Assembly (NCBI GenBank): GCA_034440155.1
Contig: JAWXBN010000073.1
Span: 1-33,522, forward strand
Length of the DNA stretch: 33,522 bases
Source: Verrucomicrobiota bacterium
GTDB taxonomy: Bacteria > Verrucomicrobiota > Verrucomicrobiia > JAWXBN01
Direction of reading: 5' to 3'
A model generated the notes under the pieces. The model was not told the DNA's origin, did not search any database, and worked only from the letters and a program-made list of their open reading frames with translations. Numbering within the stretch: position 1 is the stretch's first letter; every line of letters starts with the position of its first letter. A program made the translations under genes and the position numbers. Below, one piece after another: positions 12,951-23,109 of this stretch.

Positions 12951-13676
12951 TTACTCCTTGATGGTAATCAGGTGTCTCCTTGTACGAGGAGCACGCAAGA
13001 GTCCTGACAGAGTCTGGAACTCACGAATCAACAACCCCGCGGATTGACGCTCGAAATTCGACGAAAAATCCAAGCATGTCGAAATCTCAAAATAGGCACT
13101 GACCGGACGCTGAACGAGACAATTTGCCGGACTGAATGTTTCTATTCCCGGGTAAAGTGTCCGCAGGCGCAGCCAACCAGGCCGTTCCGCCAGAGACCAG
13201 CTATTGATATTCTCCTCCTTAAAAAGCCATTTACTCCCCAGAGCACCGCCTGTGATCCCTTCCAGTTCGGGACGATTAAATTCATCATTCAGATCAGGAA
13301 TCCATTGATTTATTTGGGGATCGTCGAGAGGTTTCGGATAAGTAAGTCCGGGGCCGTTAGAATCATTTACAACCGGCCAGTTTTCCGTGTCCCAATCGAT
13401 TTTATCCACATGCATTTGGCGGCATAAAGCGGGTCGTAAAGCATCGTAATAATTGTATACATAATACCATTGATGATCAGGACCTATGACGGCTGTTCCC
13501 GTATTCGGTGACTGGAAACGAAGGGAGGAACGAATGATATCACGGGGGCATTTTTCAATACTCGAGGTCACACAATAGAAGTCTTCATTCACACGCACAA
13601 CACATGGATCAGACCAATGACCATTTGCCATGACCGGATTTGAAAATGTGCCATCCTTATTATGACTCAAATGCAT
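12951..13676 (-). pseudogene. GH43-family glycosidase remnant (internally deleted)
   Basis: The first 40 residues are a GH43 start: SNPVMANGHWSDPCVVRVNEDFYCVTSSIE holds the catalytic base Asp in WSDP. The frame then jumps to the end of the catalytic domain (GTAVIGPDHQWYYVYNYYD ... ALCRQMHVDKIDWD). It continues into a GH43 C-terminal beta-sandwich (LNDEFNRPELEG ... ALGSKWLFKEENINSWSL ... SAGLLI) and stops early. Roughly 250 residues of the five-bladed propeller, including the other two catalytic acids, are missing, and so is the end of the C-terminal domain. Intact xylosidases of this type exceed 500 residues. The remaining reading frame is open over the deletion, but an active enzyme is very unlikely. 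It ends five bases from the convergent zinc hydrolase gene. Confidence 0.8.
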
Positions 13677-13745: not shown

Positions 13746-13953
13746 AGGTAAAAGTCCTCTGACATTCCTCGAAACCCGGACCGGGAAATGAAATACTGAC
13801 GCCTCGCTAACGCCTATCAATTAGGAAATTAATATGGACATGATGCAAGTATATATATCTTCATCTTGTGCGTGTGGCTGGACATTAAAATACGATGACT
13901 GATTCATACCAAGCGCCAGAATTTAAAAAATCAGATTAATCGGATAAAAAAGA

Positions 13954-14043
13954 CGAGGACCGGTAACCCTCATGAAGAGACTACTAGGGGAAAAGAGCGG
14001 TTACCGGCCTCGTTAGCTCACCACCCGTGTGATGAACTTGTCC
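13954..14043 (+). ncRNA. structured RNA element, copy 1
   Basis: The long hairpin pairs CGAGG (13954-13958) with CCTCG (14008-14012), then, past a bulged A, CCGGTAACC (13960-13968) with GGTTACCGG (13999-14007). Its large apical loop carries ATGAAGAGACTACTAGGGGA. A small second hairpin spans 14019-14034, then GAACTTGTCC. A second copy lies at 14341-14432 with the loop sequence conserved and paired bases exchanged in step, which argues for a functional RNA rather than simple duplication. I do not recognise the family. A 26-codon micro-ORF follows at 14097 and a terminator at 14262, so this looks like one short transcription unit. No clear promoter was found. Confidence 0.65.
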
Positions 14044-14096
14044 CAACCTCTTACAATGATTAACCTATCACGATTTTTACGGTATTAGGGTGAATT

Positions 14097-14177
14097 ATGA
14101 TGAATGGTAAAAATCAGGCTCTGAATGGGTCTATATCCTTACAAATAACCCCCTCATCTCTTCAACGTATAAATTGA
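14097..14177 (+). CDS. micro-ORF A (26 residues) downstream of RNA copy 1
   Basis: It begins ATGATG with AGGGTG four bases upstream. The peptide starts MMNGKNQALNG, continues SISLQIT and ends after PSSLQRIN. Compared with micro-ORF B (14486-14554), 14 of the first 18 residues are identical while 8 codons differ only synonymously (for example AAT/AAC, CTG/TTA, GGG/GGT, TCC/TCT). This is the pattern expected of selection on the peptide. It is hydrophilic, Asn-rich and has no membrane helix or Cys. Function unknown. The sequence after SLQIT is not shared with B. Confidence 0.55.
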   Translation: MMNGKNQALNGSISLQITPSSLQRIN

Positions 14178-14261
14178 GACTTTCGGCTTTCTTCCCTTAT
14201 CCCAACGGGATTGCATCATATAGTCCAATGGTCGCCCCGACACCTCGGCAATTCCTCCCCA

Positions 14262-14293
14262 GACAATCAGAAGATTGTCCCTCTATTTTTTTT
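14262..14293 (+). terminator. intrinsic terminator after micro-ORF A
   Basis: GACAATC (14262-14268) and GATTGTC (14273-14279) form a perfect 7-bp stem with an AGAA loop, followed by CCTCTA and eight T (14286-14293). It lies 85 bases after the stop of micro-ORF A and before RNA copy 2, so it would close the first RNA/micro-ORF unit. Confidence 0.7.
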
Positions 14294-14340
14294 CTTCGTG
14301 GTGCAATTTGCTCGCCCTATCAGGAAATTCAAAAAAAGAA

Positions 14341-14432
14341 CGAGGCCTGATAACCGCTATGAAGAGACTTCTTAGGGGAAAAGAGCGGTTATCGGCCTCG
14401 TCTAGTCCACTACTTGCGTAGCGAACTTGTCC
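14341..14432 (+). ncRNA. structured RNA element, copy 2
   Basis: Second copy of the element at 13954-14043. CGAGGCC (14341-14347) pairs with GGCCTCG (14394-14400), and after a bulged T, GATAACCGC (14349-14357) pairs with GCGGTTATC (14385-14393). The apical loop holds ATGAAGAGACTTCTTAGGGG, nearly the same as copy 1. The second hairpin (14408-14423) has a T-A pair where copy 1 has C-G, and the main stem has A-T where copy 1 has G-C: two compensatory changes. It lies 180 bases before the FIST gene, with micro-ORF B between, so it could be a leader or riboswitch for that gene or an independent unit. Confidence 0.65.
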
Positions 14433-14485
14433 GAACTTCTTTCACTGGCAAAAATATCATGGCATCTAAAAAAGAGTAATAAAAT

Positions 14486-14554
14486 ATGATGAACGGTAAT
14501 AACAACTATTTAAACGGTCTTATTTCTTTACAAATAACTATAACGGAGGGGTAA
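14486..14554 (+). CDS. micro-ORF B (22 residues) downstream of RNA copy 2
   Basis: ATGATG start with a weak AAGAG about twelve bases upstream. The peptide begins MMNGNNNYLNG, continues LISLQIT and ends ITEG. It shares MMNG.N..LNG.ISLQIT with micro-ORF A, with mostly synonymous codon differences. Its stop codon lies inside a hairpin (14548-14575) in the leader of the FIST gene, which starts 58 bases further on. It may be a leader peptide for FIST or a member of a peptide family; the sequence does not decide. Confidence 0.52.
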   Translation: MMNGNNNYLNGLISLQITITEG

Positions 14555-14612: not shown

Positions 14613-15851
14613 ATGACTAAGCTAGAGGTAATGAATAGCTCCGCCTCCATTACTTTACACGAACCAATTACTTTGGAGACCATTTCCCAAGAGATTATCA
14701 ATTGCCGTAAGGATCTCATCCCCTCAAAAAGCCGCATTGCATTTGTCTTTATGACTGAACACTTTTTCGCGATGGCCGAGGATATCCTCGAAAGCGTGAG
14801 GGTCGATGGTCATGCAGGGACTGTCGTGGGTTGCTCCGGCTCGGGTGTCTTGGGCACGAATACAGAAATCGAGCAAAGCCCGTCCTTTTCCCTGCTCATG
14901 ATGAATCTGCCCCAAGGCTGTGAATTCAATACGTTCCGTTATAATCAGGAATTCATCGAGAACCAGACTTCATCGGAAGAATGGTTTGAAAAGATCGGCA
15001 AAAAAAAGGGGGATCAATCAAAATTCGTCGTATTCTCCGATCCGTTTACGGTTGATTCCTTGGCATGGATGAAAAGCTGGAATGCCGCCCTCGACCATTC
15101 CCCCACGACAGGAGGTTTGGCCAGCGGGAATATGGGCAACCGCCAATCACGTATTTTCCTCAATGGCCAATCTTTTTCCGAAGGTGGGGTGGGTCTCCAT
15201 CTCTCCGGTGGCCTAGAAATCCACACGGTCGTCTCCCAAGGATGCATCCCGATTGGCAAATCACACATCATCACAAAGGCCGAACAGAATATTATTTTTG
15301 AGCTCGGCGGACGCCCTGCCTACGAGGTGCTTTCTGAGACGGTGGACTCCCTGAATGATGAACTCAAAAACCGCGCCCAGGGCAATCTTTTCATCGGTTT
15401 TGTCATGAACGAGTACAAGGAGAAATTTAAACGCGGGGATTTCCTCGTGCGCAATTTGCTCGGGGCCGATCAGGCAATGGGAGCTTTAGCTGTCGGTGAA
15501 TGGCCTCATGTCGGGCAAACTATCCAATTCCAACTCCGGGACTCTAAAACCGCCCATGAAGACCTCGAACACTGGCTGGAAGAAAAAAAGTCCGAGCTCA
15601 AAGGTAAACAAATCCTTTCCGGATTAATGTTCGTCTGCAACGGGCGGGGTAAAAACCTTTTTAAAGAAGGTAATCACGACGCAAAAACGGTTGCTAAGTT
15701 CTTTGGCGATATTCCCTTAGCCGGATTCTTTTGCAACGGGGAGATCGGACCCGTCGGTAAATCGAATTTCCTCCACGGGTACACCGCTTCCCTAGCCCTT
15801 TTTGTCGAATCGAGTGATCCAGCCGCCACAGCCTCTACTCAGTCCAAATAA
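14613..15851 (+). CDS. FIST domain protein (FIST_N + FIST_C)
   Basis: The 412-residue protein has a FIST N domain in its first half, with VVGCSGSGVLG (about residues 72-82) in the place of the family's GCS.xG motif, and a FIST C domain in its second half (about 225-390; MFVCNGRGKNLF, FFCNGEIGP). FIST proteins are predicted ligand-binding sensors of signalling pathways, often binding small molecules; no kinase or cyclase is fused or adjacent here. ATG 14613 is used; ATG 14631 is possible, since AGAGG lies just before it but too close. The structured RNA and micro-ORF B precede it, and an unnamed conserved gene follows 11 bases after the stop. Confidence 0.85.
   Translation: MTKLEVMNSSASITLHEPITLETISQEIINCRKDLIPSKSRIAFVFMTEHFFAMAEDILESVRVDGHAGTVVGCSGSGVLGTNTEIEQSPSFSLLMMNLPQGCEFNTFRYNQEFIENQTSSEEWFEKIGKKKGDQSKFVVFSDPFTVDSLAWMKSWNAALDHSPTTGGLASGNMGNRQSRIFLNGQSFSEGGVGLHLSGGLEIHTVVSQGCIPIGKSHIITKAEQNIIFELGGRPAYEVLSETVDSLNDELKNRAQGNLFIGFVMNEYKEKFKRGDFLVRNLLGADQAMGALAVGEWPHVGQTIQFQLRDSKTAHEDLEHWLEEKKSELKGKQILSGLMFVCNGRGKNLFKEGNHDAKTVAKFFGDIPLAGFFCNGEIGPVGKSNFLHGYTASLALFVESSDPAATASTQSK

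Positions 15852-19664: not shown

Positions 19665-23109
<3,445 letters not shown>

Follow-up and report, generated by a model that had tools for sequence, protein, structure and literature searches.

Among described loci, those that come closest to the one analysed here are found in Escherichia coli. In the type I toxin-antitoxin system of E. coli O157:H7, two homologous loci, zorO-orzO and zorP-orzP, lie in tandem, and each consists of a gene for a small protein of 29 aa and a divergent small RNA (sRNA) (PMC3919570). The LDR sequences of E. coli are tandem long direct repeats, each of which carries a peptide gene (ldr, 35 aa) and an antisense RNA (rdl) (PMC4147584). Close in another respect are OmrA/OmrB, PrrF1/2 and AbcR1/2, small RNAs that occur as tandem paralogues and have conserved segments in common (PMC4211561).

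We analysed a window of 33,522 nucleotides from a Verrucomicrobiota bacterium (contig JAWXBN010000073.1), in which a structured element is present twice, as copy 1 at 13946-14045 and copy 2 at 14331-14434. Both copies lie where a preliminary description of this DNA had placed them, but the repeat is twice as long as it had reported. Homology between the copies extends beyond the RNA to 14149 in unit 1 and to 14538 in unit 2, and the repeat of about 205 bp takes in the small RNA, a spacer and the start of a plus-strand micropeptide ORF; the preliminary description had seen only half of the unit and had missed that the start of the divergent ORF is also duplicated. The distance between the twin units is about 390 bp, and on the plus strand unit 1 is separated from unit 2 by a terminator-like hairpin and T-run that follow ORF 1 (14262-14295). 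Searches of the 2.76-Mb genome with blastn, a sequence pattern and a covariance model detected only these two copies, and a peptide search did not reveal a third copy either. No promoter stood out on either strand.

Both copies are far more stable than shuffled sequences, with fold z-scores of -5.2 (copy 1) and -7.0 (copy 2) on the minus strand and of -3.5 and -3.9, respectively, on the plus strand; the RNAs as modelled on the minus strand match the covariance model with 124 bits (copy 1) and 129 bits (copy 2). On the minus strand both helices are fully paired in both copies, apart from a bulge that moves by 2 positions between the copies and leaves one adjacent main-stem pair unshared in the ungapped register. 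Read from 5' to 3' on this strand, the RNA has a conserved lead (UGWAAGARGUUSGGACAAG), a small hairpin, a long hairpin and a run of six or seven U residues. The small hairpin has 10 pairs in each copy, all 10 of them standard, and is closed by the loop ACGG in copy 1 (14015-14038) and by a GNRA-type loop, GCAA, in copy 2 (14404-14427). The long hairpin of copy 1 (13953-14013) has at least 15 pairs, one bulge and a long pyrimidine-rich loop at about 13969-13998; in copy 2 it spans 14340-14401, with the pyrimidine-rich loop at about 14356-14386. It is followed by U6 at 13946-13951 in copy 1, which was also picked up by the terminator scan, and by U7 at 14331-14337 in copy 2. A G+C-rich hairpin with an immediate U-run was thus found in both copies specifically on the minus strand, and this part of the element looks like an intrinsic terminator. 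The terminator scan reported copy 1 only, its loop limit being 8 nt.

The folded strand is the minus strand, since the fold is more stable there, pairing is complete, the G-U pairs of this strand become A-C on the other, and the U-run comes after the long hairpin. The preliminary description had read the element on the plus strand, and several of its features change accordingly: its GAACTTGTCC is complementary to GGACAAGUUC, the 5' part of the RNA, and what it called a purine-rich loop is pyrimidine-rich on the RNA strand. The G-U pairs and the U-tail turn a plus-strand "riboswitch" into a minus-strand, terminator-ended RNA. The likely product would be a small RNA of about 100-120 nt. It may begin as much as about 20 nt upstream of the modelled 5' end, at up to about 14065 in copy 1, and the same holds for copy 2.

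Six pairs vary between the copies and all of them are standard on the minus strand. In two of them both partners differ, with C-G against U-A in the small hairpin and G-C against A-U in the main stem, and the four one-sided changes are all G-U substitutions on the minus strand, while on the plus strand they give A-C mismatches. The paired changes noticed earlier are real, although they had been read on the wrong strand. In the small hairpin 6 of 20 paired columns changed and every pair was kept, whereas in the 28 columns of the long loop (CGCUCUUUUCCCCUAAGAAGUCUCUUCAU in copy 2, pyrimidine-rich) the copies differ by one base and one indel (2/28). A conserved loop on a stem that drifts but stays paired is the pattern expected of an RNA that would act by base pairing. 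In a statistical check of the covariation, which the preliminary description had proposed, shuffled columns reached the observed covariation in 126 of 500 cases, while in a null model with the 8 observed transitions placed randomly in 46 stem positions all pairs stayed standard in about 2% of draws. Since only two sequences are compared, covariation alone is modest to moderate evidence, and it gains weight when the folding z-scores and the agreement of strand are added. The stability, the strand-consistent pair changes, the conserved loop and the terminator tail lend good support to the earlier view that this is a functional RNA.

The ORFs start about 50 bp from the RNA and are divergently oriented, the ORF being on the plus strand and the folded RNA on the minus strand. 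ORF 1 (14097-14177) encodes a micropeptide of 26 aa, MMNGKNQALNGSISLQITPSSLQRIN, and ORF 2 (14486-14554) one of 22 aa, MMNGNNNYLNGLISLQITITEG. The peptides keep 14 of 18 aligned residues and diverge beyond residue 18. In the 18 aligned codons the substitutions fall 4, 2 and 10 times on the first, second and third codon positions, and 8 of the 12 changed codons are synonymous; when the same substitutions were placed at random, none of 20,000 placements kept as many residues. Because of the synonymous bias, the 14/18 residues kept and the absence of such a result among the 20,000 null draws, the ORF appears to have been translated and selected, either since the duplication or before it. Neither peptide is hydrophobic (GRAVY -0.33 and -0.02; best 15-residue stretch, 0.67), and no membrane-spanning stretch was found in them. 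They had no match among the families of Pfam, NCBIfam, PHROGs and PADLOC, and a search for homologues found nothing in viral contigs and, in the class, only matches that were short and weak. Annotation readily overlooks polar micropeptides of this length (22-26 aa), even when they are conserved. A plus-strand peptide inside the loop (ATGAAGAGACT...) was considered separately and rejected, its frame being broken by a one-base indel.

It seems likely that the pair of minus-strand, terminator-ended RNAs with co-duplicated divergent micropeptides, which is real, is also functional, its transcription and function being predictions from the DNA. Our preferred, if tentative, reading is a tandemly duplicated cassette of a small RNA and a divergent micropeptide, in which the RNA would most likely be an antisense-type regulator of the peptide. 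We counted in favour of the cassette that one block of homology spans the RNA, the spacer and the start of the peptide together, and that the loop shows only 2 changes in its 28 columns, against 6 in the 20 paired columns of the small hairpin, where all pairs were kept. The minus-strand fold with its strand-specific G-U pairs, the U-run in both copies, the strong conservation of the codons and the layout known from zor-orz and ldr-rdl speak for it as well; the lack of a prominent promoter and of hydrophobic peptides speaks against it. The first part of such a cassette would be the minus-strand small RNA of about 100-120 nt, in which the 10-bp hairpin precedes an intrinsic terminator with a long stem, and the 28-nt pyrimidine-rich loop would be the likely base-pairing surface. 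The second part would be the micropeptide, transcribed divergently. If the peptide mRNA started upstream of about 14060 in unit 1 and about 14450 in unit 2, its 5' leader would be an exact complement of the RNA, and loop-to-loop pairing of the RNA with the leader could limit translation of the peptide, as in ldr-rdl. That the RNA should hold down the peptide is suggested by the analogy in layout with zor-orz and ldr-rdl. Between the sRNA and a transcript from the ORF side the longest exact complementarity is 7-9 nt, the same as in shuffled sequences; because this is no better than chance, any pairing would require the overlapping mRNA start.

The main rival to the antisense cassette is regulation in trans through the CU-rich loop. 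The two RNAs would then be sibling sRNAs that pair with the Shine-Dalgarno regions of several mRNAs from other loci, and the peptide would be a separately regulated neighbour. We regard this as possible, if on the unlikely side. The loop is the most conserved part of the RNA, and its CUUUUCCCC could base-pair with ribosome-binding sites rich in purines; sRNAs arranged as tandem siblings, among them OmrA/B, PrrF and AbcR, are common (PMC4211561). However, starts preceded by TAGGGGAAA were not enriched genome-wide (10 matches versus 7 for the reversed control), the translation starts in the window paired with the loop no better than random 40-mers, and the co-duplication with a conserved ORF would be left unexplained. 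Another explanation, that the repeat is decaying and no longer has a function, being what is left of a mobile element or of a leader duplicated together with a gene start, appears improbable: the changes are not random, with pairs kept, the loop kept and a synonymous bias that none of 20,000 null draws reproduced, although decayed genes do lie nearby (the GH43 deletion and the split GH1 gene described below), only two copies exist and no homologue was found.

A type I toxin-antitoxin locus is brought to mind by the small-protein and sRNA genes that lie adjacent on opposite strands and by the tandem arrangement of small ORF and divergent sRNA known from zor-orz and ldr-rdl, yet we consider it quite improbable. 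Known toxins of such size are small and hydrophobic, whereas both GRAVY values here are negative (-0.33 and -0.02) and the peptides have no membrane-spanning stretch; the 18-21 nt over which sRNA and mRNA are complementary in divergent type I loci were not found on the ORF side either, where complementarity is at chance level, although it would be perfect if the peptide mRNA overlapped the RNA gene. Because the peptides are not hydrophobic and no extended complementarity was found, the unit cannot be filed as type I toxin-antitoxin. The preliminary description had offered a riboswitch or a regulatory RNA, and the latter fits. A riboswitch or a transcription attenuator that acts on the GH43 gene from its minus-strand leader is, in our view, highly improbable, even though the minus-strand ORF 13676-12951 begins about 270 bp downstream of the terminator, which is preceded by an aptamer-like hairpin. 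The long hairpin is itself the terminator, and no upstream complement of its 5' arm was seen that is common to both copies; a conserved antiterminator was not seen by inspection, GGUUA in copy 1 being able to pair with the stem sequence UAACC while copy 2 lacks such a segment. Moreover, the unit stands alone with a divergent ORF, copy 2 would discharge into unit 1 and not into a gene, and the GH43 ORF, which is the one gene that follows on the minus strand, is without about 190 residues of its catalytic domain and appears to be a remnant.

The GH43 glycosidase ORF (12951-13676, minus strand) has an internal deletion of about 190 residues, most of the catalytic domain, so that a single frame of 241 aa runs from the N-terminal start straight into the C-terminal part. 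In an alignment with a solved GH43 enzyme, its residues 6-50 and 55-216 correspond to residues 25-68 and 264-419 of that enzyme, and the ORF is probably a remnant. Directly after unit 2 lies a gene for a FIST-domain sensory protein (14613-15851, plus strand), for which 14631, with GAGGT before it, looks like a better start than 14613. The nearest relatives of this protein that we found are in two Omnitrophota MAGs (42-45% identity), and no match to the RNA was present in the available DNA around them. Farther away, a GH1 glycosidase gene (21762-23109, plus strand) is broken into two frames that overlap. The frames, 21762-22274 and 22201-23109, match the adjoining parts 1-177 and 177-452 of the Pfam model; the break is a frameshift that belongs either to the genome itself or to its assembly.

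The RNA had been described as unrecognised, and in Rfam 15 no family reached the gathering score in the region, where only eukaryotic snoRNA and miRNA noise appeared (E 0.6-3). Homologues were not found by blastn in 93 genomes, the covariance model gave no convincing relative in 384 genomes of the class and 388 of the phylum, and the loop pattern occurred neither in 84,980 GTDB species nor in viral contigs; plasmids and phages also yielded nothing. Among the weak covariance matches inspected, one (L021) lies inside a tRNA-methyltransferase-like (trmB) ORF, and in another (L027; 26.7 bits, E of about 1e-4 per genome, intergenic) pairs are broken in both helices. An integron attC site was also discarded, as neither a cassette array nor attC core boxes were seen. 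Homologues with covariation elsewhere, which the preliminary description had proposed to look for, were therefore not found, in a search that included no near relative, and no homologue in the genomes searched supports the linkage of RNA and ORF outside this repeat pair. The absence of homologues means little because the order is represented among the genomes searched by this genome alone, and the negative result says "not widespread" rather than "unique".

The unit could be assigned to no family, and in kind it resembles known sRNA-micropeptide loci. We consider it unlikely, though worth keeping in mind, that it represents a new class, a tandem cassette of structured sRNA and divergent polar micropeptide unrelated to known toxin-antitoxin families, in which the long CU-rich terminator loop would control how much is made of a non-membrane signalling or regulatory peptide. 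If the unit is transcribed, a lineage without a near relative among the genomes searched would have a compact pair of sRNA and micropeptide, and a duplicated unit with apparent selection on both RNA pairs and codons makes a testable case. Tandem sibling sRNAs such as OmrA/OmrB, PrrF1/2 and AbcR1/2 are terminator-ended as a rule, and none of them is known to have a co-duplicated micropeptide. The RNAs described here are likewise tandem paralogues with common conserved segments, but, as judged with Rfam, they showed no sequence similarity to those sRNAs. The Rdl RNAs are about 60 nt long and the Ldr peptides are among the hydrophobic Fst/Ldr toxins, whereas the peptides found here match no family; what is shared with ldr-rdl is the tandem repeat with a peptide ORF and an RNA on the opposite strand in each unit. 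Similarly, the Zor proteins are hydrophobic toxins and Orz has 18-19 nt of complementarity to the zor mRNA, neither of which was found at this locus, while the arrangement itself, tandem units each made of a small-protein ORF and a divergently placed RNA, is like that of zor-orz.
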